Shown: one piece after another, positions 131 to 6,373 of the stretch
How the letters are laid out: the number at the start of each line of letters is the position of its first letter
Position numbering within the stretch: position 1 is the stretch's first letter
Assembly (NCBI GenBank): GCA_902812445.1
Contig: CADDZF010000001.1
Location: forward strand, 1-64,000
Origin: Methylococcaceae bacterium
GTDB lineage: Bacteria; Pseudomonadota; Gammaproteobacteria; Methylococcales; Methylococcaceae
Direction of reading: 5' to 3'
Length of the DNA: 64,000 nt
Made by a program: the position numbers and the translations under genes
The notes under the pieces: model-generated
Told to the model about the DNA's origin: nothing
Database searches by the model: none
Seen by the model: only the letters and a program-made list of their open reading frames with translations

Positions 131-3100
131 TCAGCAAAAATCCCGCGCCTGGGTACTCAGTCCGCCCAACAGCTTTGAATGATCGATCAGCCGCCGTGCC
201 AGCACGTGGATCACTTCCCCATCCCGCTGTACTTCACCCCTGACGCCCAAGAGGCGAGCGGTCAGCACCTCGCGCCGCTGCCGCTCGACCAGTCGGCTCC
301 AGACGATGAGATTCAGGTCGCCGGTCTCATCTTCCAGAGTGATGAACACCACGCCGGTCGCCGTGCCGGGGCGCTGGCGCGTGATCACCAGGCCCGCCGC
401 GCGCACGGAGTGGCCTTGCGGCAAAGCGCGTACCTCGGCCGCCGTCACGTAGCCCCGCTTCGCGAAGCGCGCTCGCAGCAGCGCGAGCGGATGTCGTCTG
501 AGCGTCAGTCGCAGGCTCGCATAGTCTGCCGTGATCGCCTCGGCTTCAGTGGGCCGCCGCAGTAACGGCGATCCTTCCACGATTCGATCCTCGGCAAACA
601 GGGGCGACGGCGCTTCGATTCCCGCAATCGCCCACAGTGCCTGATGGCGATGTCCGGCAAGACTGGACAGCGCATCGGCGGCGGCCAGCGACGCGAGATC
701 CCGACGGTCGAGACGGGCGCGCTGGGTGAGTTCCTGGATATCGGCAAACGGCGCTTCCGCCCGCGCCGCGACCAATCGCTCGGCGCCGGCCGTGGATAGT
801 CCTTTGACCTGACGCAGGCCGAGGCGGAGTGCCAGCTGGCCAGCCTTATCTCTCTCCAGCGTGCAGTCCCAGTGGCTGACGCACGCGTCCACCGGCCGCA
901 CCTCGACGCCGTGGCGCCGGGCGTCCTGGACCAGTTGCGCGGGCGCGTAGAAACCCATGGGCTGACTGTTCAAAAGGGCGCAGGTGAATGCCGCCGGCTC
1001 GTGCCGTTTCAGCCAGGCAGAGACATAAACCAGGAGTGCGAAGGAGGCCGAATGGCTTTCCGGAAAGCCATACTCGCCGAAGCCCCGGATCTGCTCGATC
1101 ATCTTTTGCGCGAAGTCGTCCGTATAGCCGCGTTCGCGCAGGCCATCCAGCAATCGCCCTTCGAACGCGGCAAGTCCGCCCTTGCGCCGCCACGCCGCCA
1201 TGGAGCGCCGCAGCCGGTCGGCTTCGCCCGAACTGAAACCGGCGGCGACCATGGCGAGCTGCATCACCTGTTCCTGGAACACCGGCACGCCCAGCGTCCG
1301 CTCCAGCACGCGTTTCACTTCAGCGCTCGGATAACTGACGGGCTCCCGCCCTTGCCGCCGCGCGAGATACGGGTGCACCACGCCGCCCTGGATCGGCCCC
1401 GGACGGATCAGCGCTATTTCGATCACCAAATCGTAGTAGCAACGGGGTCTCAGCTTGGGCAGCATGGCCATCTGGGCGCGCGATTCGATCTGGAACACGC
1501 CCCTCGTGTCGGCCTCGCCGATCATGGCGTACACCGCCGGGTCTTCCGGCGGAACGTCCTCGAGCCGCAGCGCTGCATCGCGCCGCTGGCTCACCAGCGC
1601 CAGCGCCTTGCGGATGGCTGTCAGCATGCCGAGCGCCAGCACGTCCACTTTCAGTAGACCCAGCGCATCCAGATCATCCTTGTCCCACTGGATCACCGTT
1701 CGCTCCGGCATCGCGGCATTCTCGATCGGGCACAGCCGGGTCAAGGGGCCGCGGGCAATCACCAAGCCGCCGGTGTGCTGGGAAAGGTGACGGGGAAAGC
1801 CGACCAGCACGCTCACGAGCTCGGCGAGGCGTTGCAGAATCGGATAGGCCGGATCAAAGCCAATCTCCCGCAGTCGCGCCGGCAAGACCTGCTGACCGTC
1901 CCACCCCGCCATCGAGCGGGCCAGCCGGTCCACCTGATCGGGCGGCAGCCCCAATGCCTTGGCGACATCCCGAATGGCGCTGCGGGGCTTGTAGGTGATC
2001 ACCGCGGCGGTGAGGGCGGCACGATCGCGGCCATATTTGGCATAGATATACTGGATCACCTCTTCGCGGCGTTCGTGCTCGAAATCAACGTCGATGTCGG
2101 GCGGCTCCCTGCGTTCCCGGGAGATGAAGCGCTCGAACAGCAGGGCCATGCGATCGGGATCCACTTCGGTGATGTGCAGGCAGTAACACACTGCCGAATT
2201 GGCCGCCGATCCGCGCCCCTGGCAGAGAATACCGCGCGCACGGGCGAAGGCGACGATATCGTACACGGTGAGGAAATACGGCTCATAGGCCAGTTCAGCG
2301 ATGAGAGCGAGCTCATGTTCGAGCTGGCCGCGGACACGGGCTGGCACGCCGTTTGGAAAGCGCTCGCTGGCGCCTTTTTCGGTCAGGCGGCGGAGATACG
2401 TGGCGGGGGTTTCGCCGGCCGGGACGATCTCCTCCGGGTATTCATAGCGCAGCACGTCCAGCGAGAAGCGGCATCGCGATGAGACGCGCAAGGTTTCCGC
2501 CAACAGTTCCGGCGGATAGATGCGCCGCAGGTGCTCGAGCGGACGCAGGTGCCGCTCGCCGTTGGAGTAGAGCGCATGCCCCGCCCTCTGCACGGTGGTG
2601 TGCAGACGAATGGCGGTCAAGGTATCCTGCAGCGGACGGCGCGTCCGCAGGTGCATGTGCACGTCTCCGGCCGCGACCAGCGGAAGTCCGCCTTCCCGAC
2701 CGATCCGTTCGAGCCCGCGCAGGCGCTCGCCATCACGTCCGTCGCGCAGCAATTCCACCGCGATCCAAGCGCGCTGCGGGAACCGTTCCGCGAGCCAGCG
2801 GGCCTGTTCGCTCCAGCTTTCGACGGGAAATTCCCCGGGCGGATCGTACGGCCGCGGCAGCCACAGCGCAAGGCACTGCTCGAGTCCCTGAGCCAGATCG
2901 TCCCGCGCCAATCGGTAAGCGCCCTTCTCAGCCCGCCGCCGACCTTTCGAAATGACTTCGGATAGATAGCCGTAACCCTCGCGGTCCATCGCCAGCAACA
3001 CCAGCGAAGGTCCTTCGGCTAGCGTGATCTCCGTTCCGATGATCAGCGCGAGACCGCAATCCTTCGCGGCGGCGTGCGCGCGCACGACCCCGGCCAGCGA

Positions 3101-3244
3101 GCACTCGTCGGTGAGGGCGAGCGCCGCGTAGCCGAGCGCCTTCGCTTGAAGAACCAGTTCCTCGGGGTGGGAGGCGCCGCGCAGAAAGCTGAAATTGGAG
3201 ACGCAGTGCAGTTCGGCATAGTCGGCAAGCCTTGCGCCGGACAT
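131..3244 (-). CDS. dnaE2: Error-prone DNA polymerase III alpha subunit DnaE2 (ImuC)
   Basis: PHP-domain N-terminus (HCVSNFSFLRGASHPEELV) and PolIIIalpha catalytic motif (PPDIDVDFEHERREEV); directly after imuB. ATG at 3244; alternative TTG at 3256 would overlap the imuB stop. Confidence 0.95.
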   Translation of the reverse strand: MSGARLADYAELHCVSNFSFLRGASHPEELVLQAKALGYAALALTDECSLAGVVRAHAAAKDCGLALIIGTEITLAEGPSLVLLAMDREGYGYLSEVISKGRRRAEKGAYRLARDDLAQGLEQCLALWLPRPYDPPGEFPVESWSEQARWLAERFPQRAWIAVELLRDGRDGERLRGLERIGREGGLPLVAAGDVHMHLRTRRPLQDTLTAIRLHTTVQRAGHALYSNGERHLRPLEHLRRIYPPELLAETLRVSSRCRFSLDVLRYEYPEEIVPAGETPATYLRRLTEKGASERFPNGVPARVRGQLEHELALIAELAYEPYFLTVYDIVAFARARGILCQGRGSAANSAVCYCLHITEVDPDRMALLFERFISRERREPPDIDVDFEHERREEVIQYIYAKYGRDRAALTAAVITYKPRSAIRDVAKALGLPPDQVDRLARSMAGWDGQQVLPARLREIGFDPAYPILQRLAELVSVLVGFPRHLSQHTGGLVIARGPLTRLCPIENAAMPERTVIQWDKDDLDALGLLKVDVLALGMLTAIRKALALVSQRRDAALRLEDVPPEDPAVYAMIGEADTRGVFQIESRAQMAMLPKLRPRCYYDLVIEIALIRPGPIQGGVVHPYLARRQGREPVSYPSAEVKRVLERTLGVPVFQEQVMQLAMVAAGFSSGEADRLRRSMAAWRRKGGLAAFEGRLLDGLRERGYTDDFAQKMIEQIRGFGEYGFPESHSASFALLVYVSAWLKRHEPAAFTCALLNSQPMGFYAPAQLVQDARRHGVEVRPVDACVSHWDCTLERDKAGQLALRLGLRQVKGLSTAGAERLVAARAEAPFADIQELTQRARLDRRDLASLAAADALSSLAGHRHQALWAIAGIEAPSPLFAEDRIVEGSPLLRRPTEAEAITADYASLRLTLRRHPLALLRARFAKRGYVTAAEVRALPQGHSVRAAGLVITRQRPGTATGVVFITLEDETGDLNLIVWSRLVERQRREVLTARLLGVRGEVQRDGEVIHVLARRLIDHSKLLGGLSTQARDFC

Positions 3245-3252
3245 GCGCTGCC

Positions 3253-4677
3253 TCAATCGAACAGGCCGTGCAGGAACCAGCGGCCGCTATTGCGCTCGCG
3301 GAAAACCCACCAGCGTACTCCCCTGGCGTCCGTGGCGATGAAGTAATCGCGGGCGATGCCACCGTCCCACCAGCCGCTCTCAATGCATTCGCGGCTTCCG
3401 CTAAAGACGAGCGTTCCGTTCAGACACGGCCGTCCGTCACGCGAGGCAAGCGGCCGCGGCGCCGGCAACAGCCACAGCGGTCGTCGGGCCCAGGCCGGGG
3501 CGGCGCTCGCCTCGCCCGGTGAACAGAAGCGGAAGGCGCACTCGGGGCGATAGTCGGCGACCAGCTTCAGTCCGCGTACCGCCTCCTCGCCCAGCCGAGC
3601 GCGCAGCCGCTCGATCAGCGCCTCACCGCTTTCCCGCATCGTCCGCTTCGCGCTATCCAGAAGCTCGCCCTGGACGCTGGCTACAGGGAGGATGGCGCCG
3701 GCGATCAGGACAAGAGCCTGCACCGGCGCCGGTAACACCAGGCGCGTCAGACGCTCGCGCAGCAGGCGGCCAAAGCGCTCGGCATCCCGACCGGGCTCGA
3801 TGCATCCCAGGGTGAAGCGGGTCGGCGAGGCGCCAGGATGAGCCAGGCTCCACGTCAACCGCTGCACGCCGCCCTCACGGGCGCGCAGGAAACCCTCCAG
3901 TTCCCGCAACAGCCGCTGCGCGGCGAACAGCAGCGCCTCGGTCTGCGCGGTTTGCCGGGGCAATTCCAGCCGCCGCTCGAAGCGGGACGGCGGCGTGTAC
4001 CAGGGCCGTGGATCGGGTTCCCGGCCCAGTGCGCGATCAAGCAGACGGACAAAGCCCGCTCCAAACCGTTTGGTTAGCCCCTCACGCGGCAGCCTGAGGC
4101 AATCGCCGATACACCTCAACCCCATTCCAGCCAGGCTCTGCTCGATTTTCGGGTCCAGCTGCAAATCCGTCAGGGGGAGCCGGCTGAGCGGGCCGATCAG
4201 CGATCGGCCGCCGCGGATGCACACTTCCTCCCCGGCCCTGACGAACAGCGTGGCGGCCAGCGGCGTCGGCGCCAGCGCGAGGCGCGGCCGGTAACCGAGT
4301 GCCCGCACGCCTTCGCGCACGCATTGCAGCAGCGGTTCAGCGCCGCCGAAGAGACGGAGACTGGCGCCGACCTCGAGCAACAGGCCGTCCGGCGGGGACA
4401 GGCTGAGCGCCGGCGTGAACTGACCGCACCAGGTAGCCAGGGCCTCCAGCGCGCGCCGTTCGCAGTCCTCTCGCCGCGCGATGACTTCGATGGAACCCAG
4501 CACGCGGGCGGCGTTCAGGGACATCCCCGGCCGAATGCCGAGCGCGCAGGCTGCTAGATTGGCGAGCAGCACACGCGCTGGCGAGCCGCCGGCATCGATC
4601 ACGCACGGCCCGGGCCGCGCCTCCCAGCCGAGGGCTTCGAAGGGCAGATACGGCAAGCCCAGACTCAGCCACTCCAT
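3253..4677 (-). CDS. imuB: Y-family polymerase-like mutasome protein ImuB
   Basis: 474 aa, ImuB-like sequence between imuA and dnaE2. Confidence 0.9.
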   Translation of the reverse strand: MEWLSLGLPYLPFEALGWEARPGPCVIDAGGSPARVLLANLAACALGIRPGMSLNAARVLGSIEVIARREDCERRALEALATWCGQFTPALSLSPPDGLLLEVGASLRLFGGAEPLLQCVREGVRALGYRPRLALAPTPLAATLFVRAGEEVCIRGGRSLIGPLSRLPLTDLQLDPKIEQSLAGMGLRCIGDCLRLPREGLTKRFGAGFVRLLDRALGREPDPRPWYTPPSRFERRLELPRQTAQTEALLFAAQRLLRELEGFLRAREGGVQRLTWSLAHPGASPTRFTLGCIEPGRDAERFGRLLRERLTRLVLPAPVQALVLIAGAILPVASVQGELLDSAKRTMRESGEALIERLRARLGEEAVRGLKLVADYRPECAFRFCSPGEASAAPAWARRPLWLLPAPRPLASRDGRPCLNGTLVFSGSRECIESGWWDGGIARDYFIATDARGVRWWVFRERNSGRWFLHGLFD

Positions 4678-4708: not shown

Positions 4709-5323
4709 TCACGGATGCCTCAAAGTGAGCGAGGCCGTCCGGCCGCCGCGGCGCTTGACCAGATCGATTACGCCGCCGCGTGCAGCGCTTTTCACGCGCA
4801 GGCGCAAAGCGGCAGGGGAAGCCTCAGTGAGCGCGCGCCCAGGACGGAACAGAATGCCCCAGGCGTCTCCGGTCGCGGCGGCGAGCTGCAGCCGGCGCAA
4901 GTCCCTAAACTCGGCCGTCTCCAGCCAGCTCAGTACGGCGCTGCAGGCGCCGGAGCGTAGCGTCTGCTCGGTAGCCCACAACCGGTCGGTGGGTCGGCCG
5001 CCTGCCTGGATCAGCAGCATACGGGACAGCGCCATGCCGCGCTGGGCCAGCGCGGGTGCATATGGCGTGTAAGACGGATCGACCCAGGCCAGCCAGCGTG
5101 CTTCTTGGCCGAGCCTGACGAGGGCCGGCATCACCAGCGAGAGTGCGCCGCTGCCCTCAGGGCCGACCAGTAGCTCAGTCAAAGCGCCCGAAGGCCAGCC
5201 TTCCGGCAATAAGCCGTCCAGTTCGGCAAGGCCGGTGGGAATGCCGGGAATCGCGGCGCTCGATCTGGTGCCGGCGCGCCAGATGCCATGATGAGCCAAT
5301 TGGGTTTCAAGGCGCTGATCCAT
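4709..5323 (-). CDS. imuA: Translesion synthesis-associated protein ImuA (RecA/SulA-like)
   Basis: 204 aa; GIPTGLAELDGLLPEGWPSGALTELLVGPEGSGALSL typical of ImuA; operon position. Confidence 0.88.
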   Translation of the reverse strand: MDQRLETQLAHHGIWRAGTRSSAAIPGIPTGLAELDGLLPEGWPSGALTELLVGPEGSGALSLVMPALVRLGQEARWLAWVDPSYTPYAPALAQRGMALSRMLLIQAGGRPTDRLWATEQTLRSGACSAVLSWLETAEFRDLRRLQLAAATGDAWGILFRPGRALTEASPAALRLRVKSAARGGVIDLVKRRGGRTASLTLRHP

Positions 5324-5369
5324 ATCGGAAACGGGCGCTTGAACAGCGGTTGCCCCTGAGGTGTTCCCT

Positions 5370-5507
5370 TCACCATACCCGGAGCCGGGCTAGCCGGCTG
5401 ATTTCAGCTTTGGCGCGTTTGAGCGAGCGGGCGCGCTGTTTCTGCGCCGTCCTTCGATCCCAATAAGCGTTCAGTTGTTCGAGGCGAAGGATGAGTTTCT
5501 CGAGCAT
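5370..5507 (-). CDS. 45-aa basic micropeptide, first gene of the imu operon (MLEKLILRLEQLNAYWDRRTAQKQRARSLKRAKAEISRLARLRVW)
   Basis: Internal ATG at 5507 has a good SD (GAGGAG-atccgcc-ATG); the longer 72-aa ORF start would read through the candidate operator. Sits between operator and imuA. Confidence 0.6.
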   Translation of the reverse strand: MLEKLILRLEQLNAYWDRRTAQKQRARSLKRAKAEISRLARLRVW

Positions 5508-5548
5508 GGCGGATCTCCTCAAAGGTAGACAATCAAACCACAGCAATA

Positions 5549-5564
5549 GACTACTTTTGTAGTC
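5549..5564. promoter_or_regulatory. Candidate SOS operator GACTAC-TTTT-GTAGTC upstream of the micropeptide/imuA/imuB/dnaE2 operon
   Basis: Perfect 16-bp palindrome with the same GACTA-N6-TAGTC half-sites as 6228-6243; 42 bp upstream of the micropeptide ATG. Confidence 0.7.
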
Positions 5565-5584: not shown

Positions 5585-6202
5585 TCAATCGAAATCCATG
5601 ACCATTTGCCGCACCACGCCGCAGACCGTCGCGCTCTGCTTCACCTCCATGATGGGATAGCGCGGATTGAGCGGCTTCAGATAACGCGTGCCGCCGTCGA
5701 TCACCAGTTGCTTGAAGGTGGCCTGCTCGGCCTCGTCCAGGCGCACCACCACGAAGCTGCCATGATGCGGCTCGAGCGCCGGATCGACGATGATGATGCT
5801 GCCGTTCGGGAATACCGGTTCCATGCTGTCCCCCTGCACCCGCAAGGCATAGGCGTGGACGCCGACCCGGCGAGTGACGGGAACGAAATGGTCATCCGCG
5901 CCGGGCGGATAGGGATCGACCACTTCCCGCCACTGCCCCGCCGCGACCCAGGAGATCAGCGGCACCTGCGCCAGGATGTCCGGTCCCTCGACCACGTTGC
6001 GATCCGTGCCCTGGCCGGTAGCCAGCCAGCGGGCATCGACGCGCAGCGCCGCCGCCAGCGGGAAGATTTCCGTGGTCGATTCGATCAGGCCGTTCTCCAG
6101 TTTGGAAATCAGTTGCTGGCTCAAACCGGAGTGCCGGGCGAGCGCTCGCTGGCTCAGCCGTACCTGTTGCCGCGCCCTTTTGAGCCGTTGACCCAGCGTC
6201 AT
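5585..6202 (-). CDS. XRE-HTH / S24 (LexA/CI-type) self-cleaving repressor, SOS mutasome regulator
   Basis: N-terminal HTH (LSQRALARHSGLSQQLISKLENG), Ala-Gly in WVAAGQW, Ser in VQGDSMEPVF, Lys in TFKQLV. Confidence 0.9.
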   Translation of the reverse strand: MTLGQRLKRARQQVRLSQRALARHSGLSQQLISKLENGLIESTTEIFPLAAALRVDARWLATGQGTDRNVVEGPDILAQVPLISWVAAGQWREVVDPYPPGADDHFVPVTRRVGVHAYALRVQGDSMEPVFPNGSIIIVDPALEPHHGSFVVVRLDEAEQATFKQLVIDGGTRYLKPLNPRYPIMEVKQSATVCGVVRQMVMDFD

Positions 6203-6227: not shown

Positions 6228-6243
6228 GACTAATATAATAGTC
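6228..6243. promoter_or_regulatory. Candidate repressor operator GACTA-ATATAA-TAGTC
   Basis: Extended palindrome TGACTA-N6-TAGTCA starting 26 bp upstream of the repressor ATG; overlaps a TATTAT -10-like hexamer on the minus strand. Confidence 0.7.
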
Positions 6244-6373
6244 ATTTGTGACGCCGGGCGTCAAGGGTTTTAACTGCAGCAGACCGTTTTTACTCGCTGC
6301 ATGGCTCATCCCGTTCCCGCGTTGGCTGATTCGCGGTATGCTCAAAAACACACACGTCATCGGGAACATTGGA

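Follow-up and report, generated by a model that had tools for sequence, protein, structure and literature searches.

The window, which is the whole 64,000-nucleotide stretch of DNA analysed here, comes from a 3.2 Mb draft genome of 260 contigs with a completeness of 99.94%. At one end of it, a series of genes on the minus strand runs from a phage-type repressor to an error-prone polymerase. The series begins with a CI-type repressor gene (5585..6202, minus strand), which encodes 205 residues with an XRE/Cro HTH and a Peptidase_S24 domain and was assigned from Pfam, a lambda-repressor match and its orthologs. It is followed by a micropeptide gene (5370..5507, minus strand), whose basic product of 45 amino acids is predicted to be a single helix; this description draws on the translation, homologs, selection and an AF2 model. 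Then come imuA (4709..5323, minus strand; NF033429, 191 bits, over the cut-off), an imuB-like Y-family gene located between imuA and dnaE2 (3253..4677, minus strand; PF00817 IMS over its gathering score), and the error-prone DNA polymerase gene dnaE2, or imuC (131..3256, minus strand; PRK05672, 1501.5 bits).

Coding status of the micropeptide gene

The translation of 5507..5370 on the minus strand is MLEKLILRLEQLNAYWDRRTAQKQRARSLKRAKAEISRLARLRVW*. A GAGGAG ribosome-binding site (5515..5520, minus strand) lies 7 nt 5' of the ATG at 5507, and the ATG of the relatives is likewise preceded by purine-rich sites. A longer reading of 72 aa from 5588 was rejected, because it is not conserved and the relatives have in-frame stops shortly 5' of the same ATG (2, 9 and 20 codons away in example relatives). 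These stops bear out the choice made in the preliminary description, which had preferred the ATG at 5507 with its GAGGAG to the 72-aa version.

A profile (HMM) of the micropeptide finds matches in 12 of 38 Methylococcaceae genomes, spread over 6 of 15 genera. The named carriers, Candidatus Methylumidiphilus alinenensis among them, all belong to the Methylococcaceae. Among 301 genomes of the order, no convincing homolog turned up outside these 12 carriers; 369 genomes sampled across the class gave none either, and the phages and plasmids searched gave no match. Weak HMM matches at the level of the class or order (E from 3e-4) were discarded, since those inspected (L035-L038 and L066) are unrelated loci; one weak-match locus adjoins a tyrosyl-tRNA-synthetase-like ORF.

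In an alignment of ten gap-free sequences, the variable columns at codon positions 1, 2 and 3 number 27, 25 and 42 of 45. The dN/dS values are 0.020/0.365 for the pair G019-G033, 0.099/0.83 for G033-G029 and 0.374/1.11 for G000-G033, G000 being the genome studied here, and the ratio is ~0.05-0.12 in the best-resolved pairs. Nine pairs were each compared with 2000 controls in which the substitutions were shuffled: in eight pairs no control was as similar at the protein level as the real sequences, and in the ninth two were. Because of the homologs, the codon-position pattern, the dN/dS values and the shuffling controls, the ORF stands above chance, and by these comparative measures it is a real protein gene under purifying selection. 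The preliminary description had staked its proposal on a conserved ORF with codon-level constraint in relatives, and both were found, with homologs in 12 of 38 genomes and dN/dS well below 1.

Properties of the micropeptide

The micropeptide has a net charge of +9 and a pI of 11.7, and AF2 predicts one helix over residues 2-41 (pLDDT 92), in line with its earlier description as strongly basic and likely helical. The two halves of the predicted helix are separately amphipathic. The maximum 15-residue Kyte-Doolittle mean is 0.23 for this micropeptide and below 0.8 for all relatives except G011 (1.47); a membrane-type hydrophobic stretch is absent in 10 of the 12 micropeptides. The protein is thus soluble in character. 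A basic predicted helix suggests, as a guess from the model, a binding peptide for nucleic acid, the ribosome or a protein partner.

Searches of Pfam, PHROGs, NCBIfam and PADLOC returned nothing below E 0.02. Against the PDB the best match was RaiA/YfiA, at E 0.006 by sequence and E 0.09 by domain; since the per-domain match is not significant, it was rejected. The micropeptide is therefore undescribed in the libraries searched, in line with the preliminary description, which knew of no named mutasome component of this kind. That description had also listed the beta clamp among the possible targets; inspection of the alignment revealed no conserved beta-clamp-type motif. The titles and abstracts listed by a literature search on imuA and micropeptides name no such peptide. 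For Methylococcaceae with LexA or SOS, the search gave one paper, a study of Baltic Sea sediment, which mentions LexA once.

The CI-type repressor and its operators

The repressor matches Pfam S24 (PF00717) at 2.1e-27 and HTH_3, with PF01381/PF13560 and PF00717 over their gathering scores. Its best match among solved structures is the lambda repressor CI (2.6e-17), and relatives of the CI type in phages and plasmids are up to 49% identical to it. Against the canonical LexA model (TIGR00498) it scores 28.9 bits, where the cut-off is 110.95 bits. LexA and CI undergo RecA-stimulated self-cleavage after DNA damage. Because all 12 repressor orthologs keep the residues for self-cleavage as in LexA and CI (the Ala-Gly in WVAAG, the Ser of GDSMEP and the Lys of TFKQL), RecA-stimulated self-cleavage of this repressor after DNA damage is likely; recA is present in the genome. 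The orthologs are 64-78% identical, and the genomes that have them are precisely the 12 with the micropeptide, none being found in the rest of the family. If the genomes were independent, two matching sets of 12 in 38 would arise by chance with a probability of 4e-10; there is kinship among them, but they represent six genera.

Two putative operators, each a perfect GACTAN6TAGTC, flank the repressor gene. Operator 1, GACTATTATATTAGTC (6228..6243), is located 5' of the gene. Operator 2, GACTACAAAAGTAGTC (5549..5564), lies in the intergenic region between repressor and micropeptide and has counterparts in most relatives. A consensus scan predicts a repressor promoter, TTGACG-18-TATTAT (6235..6264, minus strand), whose -10 element falls within operator 1, and several relatives have a comparable TTGACA 5' of operator 1. 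Operator 1 would thus cover the predicted -10, as expected for autorepression. The preliminary description had placed the micropeptide gene between a damage-type operator and imuA, and this arrangement holds: the palindrome spans 5564-5549 and imuA follows downstream in the same orientation.

The genome contains exactly two perfect GACTAN6TAGTC sites, those flanking the repressor gene. Since base composition alone predicts ~1.7 perfect sites per genome, it is the position of the operators, not their number, that is informative. Sites with a single mismatch are fewer than a reversed control pattern gives, and the ones inspected lie within long open frames, as do those extra perfect sites of the relatives that were inspected. 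With two perfect sites only and a count of one-mismatch sites below the control, a global SOS regulon built on GACTAN6TAGTC in this genome was rejected.

In more distant members of the group, G004 and G011, the putative operator motif is imperfect. In the repressor-micropeptide gap of G004 (L109), the GACTA and TAGTC half-sites stand 16 instead of 6 bases apart, with ten extra bases, and the repressor frame extends into the half-site region, giving a longer C-terminus. Operator 1 of G011 is degenerate or absent.

Gene order among the carriers

The carriers share the gene order operator-repressor-operator-micropeptide, and the upstream CI-type repressor is the constant partner of the micropeptide in 12 of 12 genomes. 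The neighbours of this unit differ in nearly every genus. Only the genome studied here (1 of 12 carriers) has imuA-imuB-dnaE2 downstream of the micropeptide. In G033 and G019 the downstream gene is umuD (over the NCBIfam cut-off); translesion genes are thus linked to the unit in two ways. At this position the other carriers show a methyltransferase-like gene, genes of unrelated kinds or no recognisable gene, the contigs of G025 and G036 ending soon after the micropeptide. In G033 (L106) and G019 (L104) umuD stands directly 3' of the micropeptide gene, at ~15 nt or less in G033, where ~130 extra nt also separate operator 2 from the micropeptide. A RecA tree set against a repressor tree, as evidence on transfer versus loss of the unit, was poorly resolved.

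The mutasome operon and the missing lexA

In the 17 other genomes of the family that have imuA, this gene lies 44-74 nt 3' of a canonical lexA, leaving no room for a micropeptide gene between them. The genome studied here is the only one in the family with imuA but no lexA in front of it, and no lexA match was found anywhere in this 260-contig draft. Judged by gene order, the repressor-micropeptide unit occupies the place of lexA before imuA-imuB-dnaE2 here. Of the other eleven carriers, eight lack imuA altogether. The remaining three (G011, G003 and G034) contain both the unit and lexA-imuA, at separate positions; therefore, the unit also occurs without any link to the mutasome. A further 14 genomes have imuA and no micropeptide.

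Canonical LexA scores over the cut-off in 17 of the 38 family genomes, and only 3 of the 12 carriers (G011, G003 and G034) are among them. Loss of LexA seems common in these methanotrophs.

The start of imuA lies 46 nt after the micropeptide stop (5323-5370) with no obvious ribosome site in front of it. In this genome, translation of imuA may therefore rely on the micropeptide gene.

Discussion

We consider it probable that the micropeptide is the conserved output, a soluble effector, of a private DNA-damage switch in which a captured repressor of the lambda-CI type works through two operators. In this scheme the repressor would bind GACTAN6TAGTC and repress both itself and the micropeptide operon. 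RecA filaments formed after DNA damage would trigger self-cleavage of the repressor, freeing both operators, so that the micropeptide would be made, in this genome together with ImuA, ImuB and DnaE2. The micropeptide might then act as a basic helix on a cytoplasmic target, e.g. DNA, RNA or the ribosome. The mutasome genes would have joined the repressor-micropeptide unit later. An effector is favoured over a mere cofactor, since most carriers reveal no target of the switch other than the repressor and the micropeptide. This count covers targets with consensus operators; non-consensus ones could add to it.

Linkage alone cannot tell an effector from a cofactor of the repressor. The micropeptide might be a co-repressor or anti-repressor, in the manner of DdrR or gp7, which tunes DNA binding or RecA-driven cleavage in a feedback loop. 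This is possible, though we think it less probable than an effector role. The strict linkage to the repressor in 12 of 12 genomes, and to no other gene, would fit such a partner, and there are precedents for small lineage-specific proteins that act on S24 repressors. From their descriptions, DdrR with UmuDAb in Acinetobacter, encoded by adjacent genes (PMC11332147), and gp7 with LexA in phage GIL01 (PMC9700832) resemble the present pair. However, a repressor with its cofactor would be a unit without an output in most carriers, where no further repressor target was found. In addition, ddrR is divergent from umuDAb under a shared region (PMC11332147), whereas the micropeptide gene lies in tandem with the repressor gene and has its own putative operator.

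It appears unlikely that the micropeptide is an SOS-induced inhibitor of growth or division, as SosA, YneA and SidA are, or a small toxin that the repressor keeps in check. Division inhibitors are often found among the small genes that adjoin LexA-type repressors, and SosA, YneA and ChiZ are encoded, like the micropeptide, by small SOS genes next to an S24 repressor gene (PMC6851548). An overproduced cationic helix could also be toxic. However, the known inhibitors possess a transmembrane segment (PMC6851548), whereas the micropeptide has no single transmembrane segment of the SosA/YneA/SidA type and no family match.

In this genome the micropeptide gene immediately precedes imuA-imuB-dnaE2 and shares their strand, which could make its product a component of the ImuA-ImuB-DnaE2 mutasome. 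Synteny largely refutes this, and we regard it as very unlikely: imuA stands behind the micropeptide gene in one of 12 carriers, is missing from most of the others or kept elsewhere behind lexA, and is found directly behind lexA in 17 other genomes. The preliminary description of the micropeptide gene as the first gene of an SOS mutasome operon is thus accurate for this co-oriented locus but does not extend to the 11 other carriers, and its view of the product as a mutasome accessory is not sustained. From gene order, the micropeptide probably belongs to the switch, not to the polymerase machine. A leader peptide or non-functional ORF that only couples or attenuates imuA translation, as the short gap without an obvious ribosome site would allow here, is hardly credible as a general explanation, and so is a chance ORF, given amino acids conserved over six genera under codon-level selection and carriers that keep the gene without imuA behind it.

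The closest published system to this proposed switch is the FddR unit of Francisella, in which a lambdoid S24 repressor has been kept by the cell in place of the canonical SOS regulator (PMC13148647). FddR regulates itself via its own palindrome; its self-contained unit is completed by a single neighbouring gene whose function is unknown or, in some species, by the translesion polymerase gene dinB (PMC13148647). In anatomy the two units are alike: the repressor is of the phage S24 type and would here, too, regulate both its own gene and the neighbouring one by way of an operator private to the unit. They differ in that FddR regulates a divergent gene and has GTG-N11-CAC as its operator, whereas here a tandem gene follows a second operator, GACTAN6TAGTC. 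In addition, the unit described here contains a 45-aa basic micropeptide and stands in the place of lexA at imuA-imuB-dnaE2. The lexA2-imuA-imuB-imuC cassette of Pseudomonas putida and its relatives also has a repressor gene directly 5' of imuA, and the repressor is the proposed controller (PMC3901139). Both arrangements put a gene for a self-cleaving-type repressor upstream of imuA-imuB-dnaE2, but here the repressor is of the CI type with an XRE HTH instead of a LexA, and a micropeptide gene with its own operator lies in between. The PrtR-PrtN and AlpR-AlpA pairs of Pseudomonas aeruginosa likewise join a LexA-like, damage-responsive repressor to one dedicated downstream gene (PMC12796719). 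PrtN is an activator and AlpA an antiterminator (PMC12796719), whereas the micropeptide has no recognisable domain.

A second unit was found in another genus of the same family, g10, at five loci (L051-L055 in G018, G028, G024, G009 and G032). Its first gene encodes a different S24 repressor (38-45% identical). Behind this gene lie TAGCN4GCTA palindromes, which form a tandem pair in 4 of 5 genomes. The unit includes a conserved peptide of 60-62 aa with a hydrophobic N-terminus (MKNTALFMVMAIIYALSSEMDYLDAE...) and a dN/dS of about 0.1-0.36. This peptide gave no Pfam match and no significant PHROGs match. The repressor-micropeptide architecture may therefore recur with unrelated parts.

At the mutagenesis operon our data look like a regulator swap: all 17 related imuA genes lie behind lexA, and the one genome with imuA but no lexA has a captured phage-type repressor and its peptide instead. 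This apparent exchange is relevant to the question of how SOS networks are reorganised once LexA has been lost. With its two genes, the unit also offers a minimal system for testing directly whether a strictly linked micropeptide acts as effector or as repressor partner. More tentatively, and with somewhat more doubt than confidence, we suggest that cassettes of a self-cleaving phage-type repressor, a private operator and a lineage-specific micropeptide recur in the Methylococcaceae as self-contained DNA-damage responses, which could replace lexA at a mutagenic polymerase operon, and that the 45-aa protein would be the founding member of a new family, made up of SOS micropeptides that serve as effectors or as partners of a repressor.
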